Assembly: GCA_017405445.1 (NCBI GenBank)
Contig: JAFRAK010000001.1
Location: forward strand, 1-45,881
Source: Bacilli bacterium
GTDB taxonomy: Bacteria; Bacillota_I; Bacilli_A; RF39; UBA660
Reading direction: 5' to 3'
Length of the DNA stretch: 45,881 bases
The notes below the pieces were generated by a model, which worked only from the letters and a program-made list of their open reading frames with translations, did not search any database and was not told the origin of the DNA. Shown here piece by piece: positions 1 through 7,407 of this stretch. Position 1 is the first letter of the stretch, and each line of letters starts with the position of its first letter. Position numbers and translations under genes: made by a program.

Positions 1-9
1 CACGTATAA

Positions 10-240
10 TGAACTTAGTAAATTGATGTGATTTAAATTTCAATTTACTATATAATATTTTTTACCTAGTTTTAGGTAAATTATTTTAAGAGTCAAGTCA
101 GATTATACCAAGGGTCTTTGAATCCATTTTTATGACAGACTATTCTCTTATTTTTTATTAATTTAGTTTTAGATTGTGAAGATAATAACTTATATGTGCG
201 TGATGAAATAATAGGAAATTAAAGAGAACTTAAAATTAGA
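10..240 (+). ncRNA. Candidate IS110 bridge RNA region
   Basis: Seen directly: a perfect 10-bp hairpin (16-25 with 41-50, 15-nt loop), a perfect 8-bp hairpin (61-68 with 73-80, loop GTTT), and a third element with stems TAAGAG 87-92/CTCTTA 145-150 and AGTC 96-99/GACT 138-141 enclosing a loop of about 38 nt. The rest up to the ribosome-binding site (about 240) is AT-rich. Known: IS110-group elements encode a bridge RNA in this position, with a 5' stem-loop followed by internal loops that pair with target and donor DNA. Inference: this region encodes it. The 61-80 hairpin with the T-rich stretch after it could instead be the terminator of a gene to the left. RNA ends are not determinable here. 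Confidence 0.45.
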
Positions 241-251
241 AAGGAGTAAAT

Positions 252-1463
252 ATGAGAAGTGTATTAAGTATTGATGTAGCTAATGGAAAAAGCGAAGTAT
301 TATTAATAACCGAATATGGTGAAGTTTTAATTGAGCCTTATGAAGTTAAACATTGTTTAAGTGAATTTAATTTGTTAAAAGAAAAAATTGATAATTTTAA
401 TCTAAATAATTTGACTATTTTTATGGAATCAACTTCTACCTATCACTTACCTATTCAAAGATTTTTTACTAAAAATAATTATAATGTTCAAGTAATAAAT
501 CCTATATTAGGTAAAAACAATACTAGAAATTTAAGAAAAACAAAAACTGATATTGAAGATTGTTATAATTTAGCTGATTTATTCTTTAAAAATACTGTTA
601 AAATTCATACTAAAACAATGAATGATATTTATTCAAGTATGATTGAATTATCTAGACAAGAAAAGCATTTGACTGAATCTCTTGTTAGATCTAAAAACAG
701 ATTTAAACAGATAATTGCTAATGCTTTCCCAGAATATCTTAAATGTTTTACAGCTAGTGATATTTATGGTGAAACATCACTTAATTTTATTAAAGAGTTT
801 CCACATGCCGATATTATTAAATCCAAAAGAATAGATGCTTTAGCTAATAATATTTATAAAAGTACCAAAAGATACTTGCCTTATTCAAGATGTTTAAATA
901 AAGCAAAAAAGATTAAGGAACTTGCTAATAATTCTTATCCAGGAATTGATGTAAACTCATGTGAAGTTAAAAATTTAATAAATATTATAGAAATTATTTC
1001 TTATAGTGATACTAAATTATCCGAAGTTAAACAAGACATAATTGAACTTGCCAAACAAACACCATATTTTAATATTATTAATTCTATTTATGGGGTTGGT
1101 GAAACTTCTACTGCTCAGATTATCGCTGAACTTGGAGATATTAATAGATTTGAAAACATTAAACAATTAAATGCTTTTTGTGGACTTGATCCAACTATAA
1201 TTCAATCAGGTAAATCTATTAATTATAATGGTCCAATATCAAAACGTGGCAATAGAAATGCTAGAAAAATATTATTTATTACTTGCTGTAGTATCATAAG
1301 ATCTTCTGTACTTCATAATGTAAATAATGATTTATTACTTTATTACAGAAAAAAACAAGCCGAGAATAAACATTTCAAAGAATGTATTATAGCTTGTTCT
1401 ACTAAATTACTAAGGACTATTTTCGCAATGTGTAAAAATAATTCCTTATACGCGCAAAAATAA
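252..1463 (+). CDS. IS110-family transposase (DEDD recombinase)
   Basis: The 403-residue protein has the two-domain IS110 layout. The N-terminal RuvC-like domain shows the acidic residues D8 (SIDVANGK), E59 (FMES), and D100 and D103 (KTKTDIEDC). The C-terminal Transposase_20 domain begins near residue 277 (SIYGVGETSTAQIIAELGD) and carries the GL-P...SGKS...GPISKRGNR segment (311-335) that holds the conserved serine region. Length is normal and no frameshift is seen. A GAAAGGAG ribosome-binding site sits 6 nt before the ATG. The enzyme should catalyse RNA-guided insertion and excision by a serine-linked strand exchange. It is the only plus-strand gene in the first 16 kb and reads against the adjacent operon, as expected for an insertion. 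Confidence 0.95.
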   Translation: MRSVLSIDVANGKSEVLLITEYGEVLIEPYEVKHCLSEFNLLKEKIDNFNLNNLTIFMESTSTYHLPIQRFFTKNNYNVQVINPILGKNNTRNLRKTKTDIEDCYNLADLFFKNTVKIHTKTMNDIYSSMIELSRQEKHLTESLVRSKNRFKQIIANAFPEYLKCFTASDIYGETSLNFIKEFPHADIIKSKRIDALANNIYKSTKRYLPYSRCLNKAKKIKELANNSYPGIDVNSCEVKNLINIIEIISYSDTKLSEVKQDIIELAKQTPYFNIINSIYGVGETSTAQIIAELGDINRFENIKQLNAFCGLDPTIIQSGKSINYNGPISKRGNRNARKILFITCCSIIRSSVLHNVNNDLLLYYRKKQAENKHFKECIIACSTKLLRTIFAMCKNNSLYAQK

Positions 1464-1569
1464 TATAACATAAAAATTTTAAAAAATCTACTATTGTAGG
1501 TGTTTTTGTTATGCAACCATTTCAAGAATAATTATTAAAAATAGTACTTGACTTTATTTAGATTGTCAT

Positions 1570-1632
1570 AGAAAAACAGGATTTTAGTCCTGTATATATA
1601 TCGCAAATTCTTAATCTTACGATTATTATATT
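1570..1632 (-). repeat. Diverged copy (C) of the GNAA-hairpin/terminator element
   Basis: Read on the minus strand it has TAATC-GTAA-GATTA (a stem capped by a GNRA tetraloop), then AAGA, a CGATA segment, then a perfect 6-bp hairpin (1576-1581 with 1588-1593) followed by TTTTT. The same order is found in the two near-identical copies at 4569-4645 and 14192-14267, with a different terminator stem here. It lies between the IS110 gene and the ATPase stump and should terminate transcription coming from the CDF operon. Confidence 0.5.
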
Positions 1633-1678
1633 ATAAATGTCATAATCCATGCTATTAGTAAACTATATAATGGATATG

Positions 1679-1753
1679 TCACACTTGTTCCAAACCATTT
1701 TTATTTAATTTTAATTTTTTATATACTTTTTCTATCTCTTCATTATAATACAT
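1679..1753 (-). pseudogene. N-terminal stump of a P-type cation ATPase
   Basis: A 24-codon frame starts at ATG 1753 with an excellent GGAGG site just upstream, 20 nt after the stop of the CDF gene. Its peptide begins MYYNEEIEKVYKKL and ends NKNGLEQV before TGA. This matches the start of the cation-transporter N-terminal domain of P-type calcium/cation ATPases, where a segment of the type '-E-V-x-x-x-L-x-x-x-x-x-G-L' leads into a conserved helix. All downstream coding sequence is gone and is replaced by IS110-side DNA. Inferred: the gene formed a metal-transport operon with the CDF gene and was cut by the insertion or an associated deletion. Confidence 0.6.
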
Positions 1754-1772
1754 ATTCCTCCATATAACCATT

Positions 1773-2621
1773 TTACATTGGTTCTACATCGATAAACTTG
1801 ATTGATTTATTCTTCTTTTTAATTTGTTGTTTTATTTTTTTCTCAATTTTAAGATAATCTTTAATTTTAATATTATTATTCACGTCAATTTTTAAAAAAA
1901 TACTATAATAATATGACATTCTAATTAATTTGATATCAGCAATTTTATATTGTTTTGATTGTTCAAGTTCTTTTTTTATAGTTTCCTTAATATCATCATT
2001 TTCTTCATCATTAATTAGAATTCCCCTTATATTAGATATAATCATTTTTATCGAAGTATAAAAAATGTATAATGCCATACATATACTTCCAATTTTATCA
2101 ACATTAACAAAAATTGGTATGTACTTTTCAAAAAAAGTTATAATTAATACTATTATTACGACACAGGTTGATATAAAATCTGCTTTTGATTCTTTATATG
2201 ATTCAATCAGCAATTCATTTTTTGTACTTTTTGCATATCGATTTAAAAACGAAAGCACAAATCCTTTTATAATCAAAACTAATAATAAAGCAATTAATAT
2301 GACTAGATTTGGTGTAAATTTATTCTTAAACGTGAATATTTGATAAACAATGAATAGTCCTATCAAAAATAGCAATATTCCTGTAAAAAGATTAGATAAA
2401 TAATATACTTGTCCATAACCAAATGGATATGTTTTATTCGCCCTTCTTTTTCCAATTTTATTCGCTACTAAACTTATAATATCCGTAAGAAAATCAATAA
2501 AAGATTGAATAGAATCTGCTATTAATGTTGAAAGCGAGAACAGTATACCTAAAGCAAGTTTTAAAGAAGCTGAAATAAAATTTAAAATTGCTGTTAATAT
2601 TATTATTTTCTTTTCTTTCAT
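1773..2621 (-). CDS. Cation diffusion facilitator (CDF) family transporter
   Basis: The 282-residue membrane protein has about six transmembrane segments and a short cytoplasmic C-terminal domain. The signature after TM2, ADSIQSFIDFLTD with KIGKRRANKTYPFGYGQ, is typical of CDF proteins, which export divalent metals (Zn, Mn, Fe, Co) in exchange for protons. The TM5 metal site usually reads HxxxD; here it reads ExxxD (ESYKESKAD, residues about 142-150), a possible change of metal preference. Start is ATG with AAAGG about 12 nt upstream. It is the first gene of an operon whose second gene, a P-type ATPase, is truncated. Confidence 0.88.
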   Translation of the reverse strand: MKEKKIIILTAILNFISASLKLALGILFSLSTLIADSIQSFIDFLTDIISLVANKIGKRRANKTYPFGYGQVYYLSNLFTGILLFLIGLFIVYQIFTFKNKFTPNLVILIALLLVLIIKGFVLSFLNRYAKSTKNELLIESYKESKADFISTCVVIIVLIITFFEKYIPIFVNVDKIGSICMALYIFYTSIKMIISNIRGILINDEENDDIKETIKKELEQSKQYKIADIKLIRMSYYYSIFLKIDVNNNIKIKDYLKIEKKIKQQIKKKNKSIKFIDVEPM

Positions 2622-2870
2622 AGATTATTGACCTTTCCATAAAAAATTATAACTACTCAATTTGGTTACAATTCTATATTTAATTATATCATGAACTTAT
2701 AATTATTTTAATTTATTTAATATTTATTTTGCTTTGTTTTTCTTAACTAATCTTAACTTTATTATGCAATAAATCTATATTTTTTAAATTCAGACAGATC
2801 GTAGTATTACTATATTCTGATTACTAATCATAATATTTATTACATAAAAAAAATATAAAATGTGCCTAAA

Positions 2871-2900
2871 AAAAGTGTCAGAGTGTTACAAGTCAGTACC
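2871..2900 (-). repeat. Short intergenic repeat, copy R1
   Basis: On the minus strand it reads about GTACTGACTTGTAACAC then TCTGACAC followed by TTTTTTT. It resembles R4 at 4461-4510 (GGTTGGCTTGTAATATGCC, GACACA, T-run) and more weakly R2 and R3. In R4 the order is hairpin then T-tract, so the family looks terminator-like. Confidence 0.4.
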
Positions 2901-3000
2901 CTAATTCCTCACAAAAATGAGTATATTTTAACCAATTTTTTTAATTATTTTTTCTTTTTTTATTAAAACTTGCAAGATCTCATTTGCTAAAAAGTCCCAT
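2893..3000 (-). pseudogene. Possible degraded small protein gene
   Basis: A minus-strand frame from ATG 3000 reads MGLFSK, stop, DLASFNKKRKNN, stop, KNWLKYTHFCEELGY, stop. The segments between the stops look protein-like (mixed charged and aromatic residues, no strong low complexity), which suggests a decayed small gene with two nonsense mutations. No ribosome-binding site is visible, and in DNA this AT-rich a chance frame is possible. No family recognised. Confidence 0.28.
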
Positions 3001-3030
3001 TTTATAAGGATTTAATTGATGTACAGTATA

Positions 3031-3071
3031 AATACAAGTCAGGCAGTTTATATTAGTTTTATTTTCATTAT
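3031..3071 (-). repeat. Short intergenic repeat, copy R2
   Basis: Shares a 26-nt block with R3 at one mismatch (3044-3069 versus 3834-3859, core CAGTTTATATTAGTTTTATT), and the preceding ACAAGTCAG with R1. It lies 15 nt downstream of the stop of the metallopeptidase gene, the same relative place that R3 holds behind the acetyltransferase gene. Confidence 0.55.
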
Positions 3072-3820: not shown

Positions 3821-3860
3821 AATCGTAATCAACCAGTTTATATTAGTTTTATTCTCATTC
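3821..3860 (-). repeat. Short intergenic repeat, copy R3
   Basis: Near-identical to R2 over 26 nt (3834-3859). It sits directly downstream of the GNAT acetyltransferase stop. On the minus strand it reads AATATAAACTGGTTGATTAC, matching the ACTGGTTGGCTTGTAAT of R4. Confidence 0.5.
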
Positions 3861-3867
3861 ATGAGTA

Positions 3868-4428
3868 TTACTTCCTTCTGATTTCATTTTTTTTATTTAA
3901 TGCTTCTTTTACATTTATCCAATATTTTTTAAAATTACAGTTTTCTTGTGAATCAAATATTACCTCTTTTAAAACACCACAATTATTCTCTATTGTTTTA
4001 GCAGAACCTATATTATCTTCTTTACAAGTAACTAATACATTTTCTAATCCTAATTCATCACACTTTTCAAGTGCTAAATTAAGCATTATTGTAGCATAAC
4101 CTTTTCTTCTTTCACTAGGCCTTACACTATATCCTATATGACCTCCAATATGTGAAAGAAATTCATTATCAATATTGTGTCTTATTGATAAATGTCCAAC
4201 AATTCTATCATCATTCATTAAGAAATAAACAGAAGAGGGTACTCTGCCTTCCTGTAAATCTATACCATTGTGTTCCTTTATTATTATTTTAAGCCATTCT
4301 TCATAGTTAATATTTTCAGTACAACTTAATGGTTTTGCTTTGGGATTATCTAAACGATATTCTTTTAAATATTCTATCCACTTTTCTTTATCTTCTATTG
4401 TCGGAAATTTCAAATAAATATTTGCCAT
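3868..4428 (-). CDS. GNAT-family N-acetyltransferase
   Basis: The 186-residue protein carries the GNAT acetyl-CoA-binding motif A: a beta-strand ending IGYSVRPSERRKGYATIML (residues about 98-116), where R-R-K-G-Y-A is the Q/RxxGxG/A pyrophosphate loop. The following strand VLVTCKEDN and helix GSAKTIENNCG form motif B. Length suits a single-domain GNAT. N-terminal residues (PTIEDKEKWIEYLKEYR) resemble the amino-acid-type subgroup often annotated as 'predicted acetyltransferase' in Bacillota. The substrate cannot be told. It stands alone between repeats R3 and R4; start ATG 4428 has GAGGCGAAGAAT upstream. Confidence 0.88.
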   Translation of the reverse strand: MANIYLKFPTIEDKEKWIEYLKEYRLDNPKAKPLSCTENINYEEWLKIIIKEHNGIDLQEGRVPSSVYFLMNDDRIVGHLSIRHNIDNEFLSHIGGHIGYSVRPSERRKGYATIMLNLALEKCDELGLENVLVTCKEDNIGSAKTIENNCGVLKEVIFDSQENCNFKKYWINVKEALNKKNEIRRK

Positions 4429-4460
4429 ATTCTTCGCCTCTTTTTATCAATATAAAAAAA

Positions 4461-4510
4461 TGTGTCGGCATATTACAAGCCAACCAGTTGATAGTCGTTT
4501 TTTCATTTCA
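4461..4510 (-). repeat. Short intergenic repeat, copy R4, with terminator-like hairpin
   Basis: On the minus strand a stem TTGGC/GCCGA (4479-4483 with 4465-4469, one G-T pair) is followed by CACA and a seven-T run (4454-4460), a weak intrinsic terminator. The sequence is shared in part with R1, R2 and R3, giving four related copies in 1.7 kb. Confidence 0.45.
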
Positions 4511-4677: not shown

Positions 4678-5088
4678 TTAATTACTATTCTTGTTTTGAT
4701 TATCTGATTCTGACATATGATTTTGTTGATTATTGTTTTTGTCCTTTTTTCTTTGTTTATCATTTTGTTCTTGTCCATCTATTTCAGGTGGATTTTCACC
4801 TTGAGTTTCTTCATTCATGTTTGGATTATTTCTTATATTTCTGTGATCATTCATTCCAGGTGGTTGATTATTATTCCAATTATTTTGTATAGCAGTAGGT
4901 GTGTTGTTTTTTGCTGTTATTTTGTTATAAATTATACATCCACTTGTTGCAACAATTGCACCTATTAAAAATCCAATTATAAAAATGATAAATTTTTCTT
5001 TTATAAAGATAACCGTTTTTTCCTTCTCCATAGTATCTTCTTTAATTTCTTTTTTATTATGTTTTTTCTTCTTATCTTCTTCCACCAT
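4678..5088 (-). CDS. Small membrane-anchored protein with Asn/Gln-rich tail
   Basis: 136 residues. A Lys/Glu-rich cytoplasmic N-terminus (1-28) leads into one transmembrane helix (about 29-52, IIGFLIGAIVATSG) and then a polar extracellular tail rich in Asn, Pro, Gln and Asp (QPPGMNDHRN, NNNQQNH). No enzymatic motif. It overlaps the end of the upstream Cthe_2159-like gene by 17 bp, and its ribosome-binding site (GAGAGGAAATA) lies inside that gene. An internal ATG (residue 20) just before the helix is the alternative start. As the last gene of the envelope operon it probably acts at the cell surface. Function unknown. Confidence 0.75.
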   Translation of the reverse strand: MVEEDKKKKHNKKEIKEDTMEKEKTVIFIKEKFIIFIIGFLIGAIVATSGCIIYNKITAKNNTPTAIQNNWNNNQPPGMNDHRNIRNNPNMNEETQGENPPEIDGQEQNDKQRKKDKNNNQQNHMSESDNQNKNSN

Positions 5089-6271
5089 TATTTCCTCTCA
5101 TTCCTCCTCCCATCATTTGATTAGATAGAGTATCTGTTTCATTTCCATTTACAATAATTTTTCCTCCTGTTTTACTACCAGTTCCATCATAGTCAAATGG
5201 TGATTGTGCATTAATTGTTATTGTTCCTCCTGTAATTAATAAATCGCCATTTGAATCAATCGCATCGGTATCTCCTTGCCCCATATCAACAGTTATAGTT
5301 CCACCATTTATTTCAACTTTAATTGAATATTTTGAAGATTTATTGGCAGCATTAATTCCATCATCTGTTGCTTTAATATTAATTATTCCGTTGTTTATTA
5401 AAATATAAGTTCCTTCAATTCCTTCTCCTGCTGTAATATTAATTGTACCACCTTCAAATTGAGCTATAGTTGTAGCATGGATTCCGTCATCGCCTGCATT
5501 AATAGTAATATTTCCTCCTGATATATATACATAACCTACAGAATCATCTTCATCATATTCAGCGTGTAATCCATCTGTTCCAGCTTTTATTGCTAATGTT
5601 CCATCAGCAATACGAATAGAATCATTAGCTTGAAACCCTTTTGATGTTGCAGTTATATTATAGGTTCCTCCAGTTACTTTTAAATCATCTTTTGAAACAA
5701 CTCCATTATCAGTTGAATTAATTGTTAGAGTTGCAGTTCCATTTAAAGTTATATCTGATTTTGAGAATATAACTCCATCTGTGTTTGTATCTTTATCTGC
5801 CTTAAATGTTTCAGAGACAGTTAGTGAACTATCAGCTGATGTAGTTATAAATACTTTATCTCCTGATTTAACATATATACATGGAAAATTAGTATTTGTA
5901 ATATTTACACCATCCAACACTATCTGAATTTTAGCTTCATCATCTGCTTCTACATAAATTGTTGAATTAGTTGCTGTTCCACTTATTACATAAACTCCTT
6001 CTTTTGTAATATTTATATCTTTGCCACTTGTTACAGTATATTTTGTGGCATCAGTTGTATCTACTGTTTGTTCTAAATCTCTATCAGTAAACATTTCTGA
6101 TGTACTATAGGTATCATTTGTAACCGAAGTAGAGTTTGTTGAATTGTTTTTTTCACTATAAATTGCGTTGTTTGTATTATTAGAACTATTATCTTTTATG
6201 AAATATCCAATTAAACAAGCAAGAACAATCACTAAAACTACTACTAAAATCATATATCTCTTATTTTTCAT
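5072..6271 (-). CDS. Cthe_2159-like carbohydrate-binding beta-helix protein, membrane-anchored (copy 2)
   Basis: About 399 residues from ATG 6271, chosen because GAAAGG lies 9 nt upstream; the ATG at 6280 would abut the Shine-Dalgarno. An N-terminal anchor (ILVVVLVIVLACLIGYFI) is followed by a Thr/Ser/Asn-rich linker. The body from about residue 65 consists of repeated beta-strand turns (GVYVISGTATNSTIYV, KIQIVLDGVNITN, GDTDAIDSNGDLLITGG, DGINAANKSS) typical of Cthe_2159-type polysaccharide-binding right-handed beta-helices with Asp/Asn calcium sites. It ends in a Gly/Met/Asn-rich tail. It is a tandem paralogue of the next gene. Likely binds acidic polysaccharide at the surface. Confidence 0.85.
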   Translation of the reverse strand: MKNKRYMILVVVLVIVLACLIGYFIKDNSSNNTNNAIYSEKNNSTNSTSVTNDTYSTSEMFTDRDLEQTVDTTDATKYTVTSGKDINITKEGVYVISGTATNSTIYVEADDEAKIQIVLDGVNITNTNFPCIYVKSGDKVFITTSADSSLTVSETFKADKDTNTDGVIFSKSDITLNGTATLTINSTDNGVVSKDDLKVTGGTYNITATSKGFQANDSIRIADGTLAIKAGTDGLHAEYDEDDSVGYVYISGGNITINAGDDGIHATTIAQFEGGTINITAGEGIEGTYILINNGIINIKATDDGINAANKSSKYSIKVEINGGTITVDMGQGDTDAIDSNGDLLITGGTITINAQSPFDYDGTGSKTGGKIIVNGNETDTLSNQMMGGGMRGNNGGRR

Positions 6272-6285
6272 TACCATCATCCTTT

Positions 6286-7407
6286 CTATTTTGTTGAAGC
6301 AGGTATTTCACTTACTTCATTACCATTGATTATTATTTTTCCTCCATTTAATGTAGCTTCTCCTACATAATCAAATGGTAAACTAGCTGTTATATCAATT
6401 GTTCCTCCATTGATAGTTATATCGCCATTTGAATCAATCGCATCGGTATCTCCTTCATCAACTTTGATTGTGAGAGTTCCATTATTCATTTCAAATAAAG
6501 CGTTGTATGAATCACTTTTATTTGCCGCATTGATTCCATCATAAGTTGCATCTATATTAATGTTACCACCATTGATTTGAATGTAAGTTCCTTCAATTCC
6601 TTCTCCTGCTGTAATATTAATTTTTCCATCATCAACTTGAACAACTGATATAGCATGTATTCCATCATCAACTACATCAATGTTAATTATTCCACCACCA
6701 ATATAGACATATCCAAGTTTATCATCATCGCTATTTTCTGTATGTATTCCATCATCATCAGATTTGATGTTTACTTCTCCATCAGACATTGCAAATGAAT
6801 CATTAGCTTGAAGTCCTTTTGATGTTGCAGTTATATTATAAGTTCCTCCAGTTATTTTTAAATCATCTTTTGAAACAACTCCCTTATCAGTTGAATTAAT
6901 TGTTAGAGTTGCTGTTCCATTTAAAGTTATATCTGACCTAGAAAATATTACACCATCAGTTTTTGTACTACCATCCTTTATAAAGGTATCAATTACGGAA
7001 AGTGTACTATCATCAGATGTAGTTATAAATACTTTATCGCCTGATTTAACATATATACATGGGAAATTCGTGTTAGTAATACTTACACCATTTAAAACAA
7101 TTTGAACTTTATCGTCGCTTGCTGCTTCTACATAAATTGTTGAATTAGTTGCTGTTCCACTTATTACATAAACTCCTTCTGTAGTAATTGTAATATTCTC
7201 ATCTGATTTAACTGTATAACTAACTGCACTTGAAGTGTCAGCAGTTTGTTTTAAATCTCTTGATGAAAATAATTCTGATTCATTATATATTCCAGTTATT
7301 TTAGTATTTTCTTTTGCCATTTCTTCATTTTTGGTTAATAAGTAAACTCCTATACAAAGTATTAAACCTAAAACTACTGCAAATATTATTATTTCCTTAT
7401 TTTTTAT
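6286..7407 (-). CDS. Cthe_2159-like carbohydrate-binding beta-helix protein (copy 1); unusual start
   Basis: The first in-frame ATG (7320) gives 344 residues and no anchor, and it has no Shine-Dalgarno. The frame is open upstream for 29 more codons that encode a clear membrane anchor (IIIFAVVLGLILCIGVYLL). A strong GGAGG (7416-7420) lies 8 nt before an in-frame ATA at 7407 and 5 nt before an ATC at 7410. I therefore extend the gene to 7407, with a rare AUA/AUC start, or an ATG lost by point mutation. The rest is the same beta-helix as its neighbour, with shared DNA blocks of high identity. The polypeptide probably displays a polysaccharide-binding domain outside the cell, next to the CotH-like protein. 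Confidence 0.78.
   Translation of the reverse strand: MKNKEIIIFAVVLGLILCIGVYLLTKNEEMAKENTKITGIYNESELFSSRDLKQTADTSSAVSYTVKSDENITITTEGVYVISGTATNSTIYVEAASDDKVQIVLNGVSITNTNFPCIYVKSGDKVFITTSDDSTLSVIDTFIKDGSTKTDGVIFSRSDITLNGTATLTINSTDKGVVSKDDLKITGGTYNITATSKGLQANDSFAMSDGEVNIKSDDDGIHTENSDDDKLGYVYIGGGIINIDVVDDGIHAISVVQVDDGKINITAGEGIEGTYIQINGGNINIDATYDGINAANKSDSYNALFEMNNGTLTIKVDEGDTDAIDSNGDITINGGTIDITASLPFDYVGEATLNGGKIIINGNEVSEIPASTK

Follow-up and report, generated by a model that had tools for sequence, protein, structure and literature searches.

The window analysed here is a stretch of 45,881 nucleotides (nt) from a Bacilli bacterium (assembly GCA_017405445.1, contig JAFRAK010000001.1), and it opens with an insertion sequence (IS) of the IS110 group in which the transposase gene is preceded by a structured non-coding leader. 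An initial annotation, made from the sequence alone, had taken this leader to be a candidate bridge RNA, and comparison with relatives of the element and with uninterrupted insertion sites leads us to consider it very probable that window positions 1-1568 constitute an IS110-group element with a bridge RNA in its left end and a guide directed against the extended -10 motif of promoters. The element and its borders comprise the following features.

1..2, plus strand: left core dinucleotide CA at the boundary of target and element, from end alignment and uninterrupted sites, with the left flank supplied by contig C5
5..10, plus strand: TATAAT, -10 hexamer of a putative circle-junction promoter whose -35 lies in the right end at 1548-1553
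252..1463, plus strand: IS110-family RNA-guided transposase/recombinase of 403 amino acids (Pfam, NCBIfam, alignment to solved chains)
1464..1566, plus strand: right non-coding end, with the junction -35 TTGACT (1548-1553) and the left donor sequence (1557-1566)
1567..1568, plus strand: right core dinucleotide CA, from end alignment
1569..1577, plus strand: right target half TAGAAAAAC, from the uninterrupted site TATTATAA|CA|TAGAAAAAC of L095

The element and its boundaries

The transposase gene is a complete open reading frame (ORF), intact as annotated, whose product matches PF01548 (E 2.9e-21) and PF02371 (E 2.6e-20) and also scores as a member under the NCBIfam model 'IS110 family RNA-guided transposase' (E 1.6e-55). 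Among solved chains, ISCro4 and IS621 come closest; with the former (PDB 9t56), the nearest by sequence, the IS110-family catalytic domains align at E 3.3e-13 over short stretches only. Residues E59, D100, D103 and S319 align with the catalytic E60, D102, D105 and S241 of IS621 (the solved IS621 chain being numbered two higher), and D8 was matched to an IS621 catalytic residue by position. A match to the NCBIfam TIGR-Tas endonuclease model is seen in the C-terminal part as well (E 1.7e-10, under the cut-off), in keeping with a link between the two RNA-guided families.

Alignment of the ends of the window, C5, L008 and L031, coupled with the uninterrupted sites, placed the element at 3-1566 between CA cores at 1-2 and 1567-1568. 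The window starts at the edge of its contig, and two further contigs of the same genome proved informative: C5 carries its own left flank and then terminates in window 1-132 at 100%, while C31 opens with window 1436-1574 (99%) and continues into a different right flank. The ends on these contigs imply that two or more copies are present in the genome. L008 is a relative that matches the window at 88% over 1-1583. When the flanks were searched against 39 genomes of the genus, the genome of origin counted among them, the C5 flank was found uninterrupted as AATTATAC-CA-TAAAAAAGAC at L098, L099 and L100, and the right flank of the window as TATTATAA-CA-TAGAAAAAC at L095. The uninterrupted sites read TTATAC|CA|TAAAAA, and each has a single CA, so the insertion is core-flanked without a longer duplication. 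The concern of the initial annotation that the hairpins of the leader might fall outside the element is thereby answered, as the ends of the further copies gave the boundaries and every hairpin lies inside 3-1566. At 249 nt (3-251), the left end exceeds the right end of 103 nt (1464-1566). The viral collection searched contained no relative.

At the level of sequence, the right and left ends joined through the core (RE-CA-LE) give TTGACT-17-TATAAT in the window and in L008; the 17-bp spacer rests on these two and on junctions read by eye, a greedy regular expression having given 19 for most relatives. Junction promoters of this kind are known for IS621 (PMC11208160) and ISEc21 (PMC11187229). 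The transcription start and the ends of the RNA are predictions.

A predicted bridge RNA in the left end

The leader contains the following predicted parts, all on the plus strand.

16..50: hairpin 1, predicted 5' stem-loop of the junction-promoter RNA (arms 16-26/40-50), a hairpin in relatives too
61..80: hairpin 2 (arms 61-68/73-80), a hairpin with changed arms in relatives
83..90: 5' arm of a long-range helix that closes both loops, pairing with 229-236
90..147: target-binding loop, with stem 90-92/145-147 and 96-99/138-141, guides and an inner hairpin at 111-125
102..110: left target guide and core ATTATACCA, reverse complement TGGTATAAT, equal to the C5 left flank and core (7/7 non-core bases)
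127..134: right target guide and core UUUUUAUG, complement of CATAAAAA (6/6 non-core bases in the uninterrupted C5 sites)
135..136: predicted handshake guide AC at the IS621 handshake position, which would pair with donor GT by the core
161..209: donor-binding loop, with stem 161-164/206-209
168..177: left donor guide TTTAGATTGT, the same sequence as the terminus of the right end (1557-1566)
194..202: right donor guide AU-GU-G-CGUG, with split pairing to CACGTAT (window 1-7) at IS621 spacing
203..204: predicted handshake guide AU, which would pair with target AT by the core
229..236: 3' arm of the long-range helix, pairing with 83-90

The three structures named in the initial annotation are all present: the first hairpin has arms of 11 bp that are 100% complementary, the second is perfect over its listed arms (longer arms, 53-68/73-88, are 81% complementary), and the larger stem at 87-150 has arms 87-99/138-150 of 13 nt (77%) with 38 nt between them. 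To these the present analysis adds the donor loop at about 161-209 and the long-range helix. Folding of the single sequence was only moderately above chance, with -20.7 kcal/mol for 57-165 (z -2.50, 2/200 shuffles as good), and the minimum-energy fold over the whole leader differs from the bridge-RNA fold; as single-sequence folding is not decisive, the case was made by counts over relatives. No Rfam model was matched at E <= 1 in window 1-3000, and none at gathering score in L001, L008, L010, L012 and L061.

For these counts 38 leaders were lined up on their guides, L070 being left out for the target stem (37 leaders). The target-loop stem 96-99/138-141 is paired in 146/148 cells, with changes on both sides and with GC, AT and TA pair types at one position, as compared to 60 and 74 of 148 cells when it is slid by one base; the donor-loop stem 161-164/206-209 is paired in 152/152 cells (81 and 104 when slid), likewise with both sides changing. 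Column shuffles of distinct arm sets only were as good in 1/20,000 and 156/20,000 cases for the target and donor stems, respectively. These counts take related sequences as separate and stand for several independent changes, not for 38. The arms of the long-range helix differ among subfamilies yet stay self-complementary. The stems, whose loss in other copies the initial annotation had named as a refuting outcome, are kept in relatives with compensatory changes. One might take the hairpins instead for protein-binding sites in the DNA at the element end, with the transposase protein picking the target, and the inverted repeat of hairpin 1 does lie close to the left terminus; however, compensatory changes hold the pairing as the sequence changes, paired arms can be separated by as much as about 140 nt (83-90/229-236), and the guides covary with the targets, so we give this explanation next to no credence.

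As annotated, the loop at 87-150 holds a target-binding sequence, and its guides could be read out at 102-110 and 127-134. Guides were compared with flanks and ends in 66 of 68 catalogued loci, and removal of rows with an unreadable guide or flank and of duplicate guide/flank pairs left 39 distinct pairs for the left target guide, 36 for the right target guide, 28 for the left donor guide and 22 for the right donor guide. The left target guide matches its own left flank at 249/273 bases (shuffled mean 0.597), and at 158/175 in the group of the window (shuffled 0.785), while the right target guide, scored at 5 nt, matches at 138/180 (shuffled 0.399). In the four tests of target guides (left and right, all pairs and the group of the window) 0/20,000 shuffles were as good, and guides fit their own flanks far better than the flanks of other elements. 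Comparison of the loop with empty sites, which the initial annotation had suggested, gave 7/7 and 6/6 at the C5 site in three genomes of the same genus, and the right target guide also fits the C31 flank at 6/6. The left donor guide matches at 216/224 bases, a pattern partly fixed by the search pattern. For the right donor guide, one free base is complementary in 22/22 pairs with four Watson-Crick types, and in the window this guide repeats the arrangement described for IS621 (PMC11208158), in which two bases pair, two are flipped, a G faces T and four more bases pair.

A plain 5' untranslated region (UTR), with hairpins that regulate transposase expression by attenuation or by shielding against read-through and with loops that have no guiding role, would account for a leader that directly precedes the start codon and has a good ribosome site, and for a single-sequence fold that is not extreme, and small RNAs of ISPpu9 were once held to tune recombinase expression (PMC11208160). 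Such a region fails to predict that the loop bases track the ends of the element and the target beside it or that they fit uninterrupted sites, and we consider it very improbable.

Several observations nevertheless weigh against a bridge RNA of the kind proposed. The left and right flanks of the window lie on separate contigs, so that the C5 flank may come from another copy, and L031, one of the two nearest relatives, has lost the normal left boundary. The full leader (14-251) reaches a z of only -1.67, with 11/200 shuffles as good. The guide shuffles take no account of relatedness; the right target guide is loose in the group of the window (79/110 at 5 nt, shuffled 0.499) and matches only 5/6 in the window's own right flank; the C of the core is left unpaired by the left donor guide; and L008, the other of the two nearest relatives, fits poorly (left guide 4/7, right 2/6). 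Poor fits were also seen in L070 (right 2/6) and in L017, L047 and L063 (left 5/7).

With compensatory changes in the stems and a fit of the guides to both targets and donor ends, the candidate bridge RNA of the initial annotation is upheld and remains a prediction; all parts of the IS621 type are present, and its identification as a predicted bridge RNA of that type is strongly supported. From these features we infer that the RNA would be expressed and bound and would serve catalysis. Excision would join the ends (RE-CA-LE) into a sigma-70-like promoter, from which the left end would be transcribed, the recombinase would bind the resulting bridge RNA, the target loop would pair through 102-110 and 127-134 with both strands of ATTATAC-CA-TAAAAA, and the donor loop would pair through 168-177 and 194-202 with the element's own joined ends. 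Strand exchange would then take place at the CA core, with the element entering a host promoter at the point where its upstream spacer meets the -10 and facing away from the gene of that promoter.

A separate observation concerns the leaders of L027 and L041, in which a deletion between the look-alike target- and donor-loop hairpins joins the left target guide to the right donor guide; L041 shares its insertion site with L056, whose RNA is intact.

Promoter motifs as probable targets

Read as its reverse complement, the left guide ATTATACCA gives TGGTATAAT, an extended -10 (TGnTATAAT). Targets throughout the group of the window show TGnTATAAT on the strand opposite the element, and the core coincides with TG. 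From 26 distinct left flanks, three shorter than 150 nt were dropped; among the remaining 23 distinct sites, 22 have at least 5/6 matches to TATAAT, as compared to 233 of the 8,640 TG positions that this DNA contains. A gene start was scored where a ribosome site and a start within 100 nt read away from the element. Under this rule, a start lies just beyond the left flank at 19/23 distinct sites, as compared to 787/10,000 random positions and 1/25 right flanks. The rule had been broadened: a first test with a strict Shine-Dalgarno list gave 10/23 left flanks (random positions 276/4,000, right flanks 2/20), and after sites such as AGGTGATTAAATG were seen the list was widened and the distance shortened, which raised the count to 19/23. 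Among the four misses is the C5 site, which has TATAAT, AGGAGG and ATG in order but no more than a short ORF.

The broadened rule was applied unchanged to 13 loci collected later, 12 of which were scored as L138 has no recognisable left end. The left guide matched at 78/84 bases, at least 5/6 of TATAAT was present in 11/12, and a gene start was found in 6/12, two of the misses having just 97 and 139 nt of flank. It is likely, on this sequence evidence, that the element and its relatives steer into the promoters of host genes by way of the target guide.

The connection with promoters could yet be indirect, with a genuine bridge RNA and with surviving insertions lying in AT-rich intergenic DNA that abounds in gene starts and in sequence resembling TGnTATAAT. 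The other TGNTATAAT sites in the same DNA precede gene starts in 12/21 cases, so any guide that matches the motif would land there and the guide motif accounts for most of the enrichment at gene starts; the out-of-sample rate of 6/12 points the same way. These counts tell against direct promoter targeting, but the guide itself keeps the motif (11/13 distinct guides have TG and at least 4/6 of TATAAT), TG is the exact position of the core and the orientation is one-sided (19/23 vs 1/25), and we hold an indirect link to be rather unlikely.

Insertion between spacer and -10 would part the latter from its native upstream sequence, and one further feature of the left end bears on this.

17..22, minus strand: outward -35-like hexamer TTTACT, 17 bp from the host -10 at the insertion site, with a putative promoter function

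With a criterion of at least 4/6 matches to TTGACA at 16-18 bp, TTTACT, TTTACA or a close variant was found at a distance of 17 or 18 bp to the -10 of the target in 39/40 distinct combinations of site and left end, and in 9/12 of the later loci, the failures (L111-L113) being the most distant. At the uninterrupted sites the native hexamer has at least 4/6 matches to TTGACA in just 2 of 19 distinct reconstructions and is poor in 17/19 (24 rows with five repeats, the two flanks of the window coming from different contigs). With an outward -35 at 17-18 bp from the -10, insertion could therefore rebuild the host promoter. On the other side of the balance, the left ends that carry the hexamer are homologous, and the sister (C) lineage, with its target CAAATTACA before start codons, keeps TTTACA without a -10; promoter repair by the outward TTTACT is for these reasons put no higher than possible. 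That lineage also lends weight to a different account in which TTTACT/TTTACA is kept only as the 5' arm of RNA hairpin 1 and not as a -35, against which stand the varying partner arm (C or T opposite an invariant G) while the hexamer stays and the spacing of 17-18 bp in the 39/40 combinations; we regard the chances of this account as evenly balanced. Taken as a whole, the suggestion that the bridge RNA of this clade is programmed against the extended -10 and that the outward -35 adds a built-in promoter repair to this homing, so that insertion trades the upstream half of the host promoter for one supplied by the element and the gene stays expressed, is tentative and falls a little short of an even chance.

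The sister (C) lineage (L010, L013, L016, L021, L028, L053-L056 and others) has the left guide CAAATTACA and inserts just before gene starts on its own strand, with outward-reading starts in 10/19 right flanks and 0/14 left flanks. At L127, from another subfamily, the right flank TAAAAAAGACGAAATTTAG is a cassette-repeat site of the type that the uninterrupted C5 site represents; this subfamily and the lineage of the window share a target.

Relation to known systems and other features of the window

By the features tested, the element would belong to the IS110 group with a bridge RNA of the IS621 type, set apart by its CA core and its promoter target. As described for IS621 (PMC11208160, PMC11208158), the bridge RNA lies in the left end with the target loop followed by the donor loop and carries guides for both strands, the left target guide being complementary to the bottom strand and the right guide to the top strand of the target; the split right donor guide that skips two bases and sets a G opposite T, the handshake positions, the sigma-70 junction promoter and the DEDD plus serine residues are likewise shared. 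The differences are that IS621 and its close orthologues have a CT core, whereas the clade of the window has CA, and we therefore make no claim to IS621 orthology; that IS621 targets a repetitive extragenic palindromic (REP) sequence and not an extended -10 promoter; that two hairpins precede the target loop and the right target guide is longer here; and that the left donor guide here does not pair with the core C. The ISEc21 seekRNA (PMC11187229) is comparable in its upstream non-coding region, its junction promoter and a top-strand match located 3' of the bottom-strand match; unlike the present element, ISEc21 targets an IS3 transposase gene and has a short 74-nt form. The IS1111 group is characterised by subterminal inverted repeats of 7-17 bp and by a bridge RNA in the right end; in the present element, it is the left end that contains the guides and stems. 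A hybrid promoter could likewise arise when IS elements with outward -35 boxes insert by a -10 (PMC9208149). For those elements no guide that positions the end was encountered, whereas in the present case an RNA guide would set the end in register each time.

Promoter targeting by IS110 elements was not found in the titles and abstract openings searched, although such motifs may be present among the targets that PMC11208160 lists (Extended Data Fig. 5, Supplementary Data 2). Bridge RNAs being already known, what is new relative to the literature examined is a guide against a universal promoter motif together with an element end in promoter register. If correct, this would provide a near-universal supply of target sites at low cost, as every bacterium must keep the extended -10; it would explain how safe sites are found in any host and would predict an effect on neighbouring genes. 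Natural pairs of guide and target with a CA core could also widen the sequence range of bridge recombinases. IS900 is said to target translation starts, a precedent that our literature search did not recover.

Elsewhere in the window, a repeat of about 240 nt is common to the C5 flank and positions 2867-3069, 3830-3877 and 4437-4482, and it also occurs at L096, L097, L101 and L102. In several genomes of the genus this repeat separates short genes on the same strand, among them, as judged by eye, acetyltransferase-like, RhuM-like and kinase-like ORFs, a layout that recalls an integron-like cassette array. On the minus strand, two adjacent ORFs at 5072-6280 and 6286-7320 resemble, by eye, close paralogues with common repeated segments.
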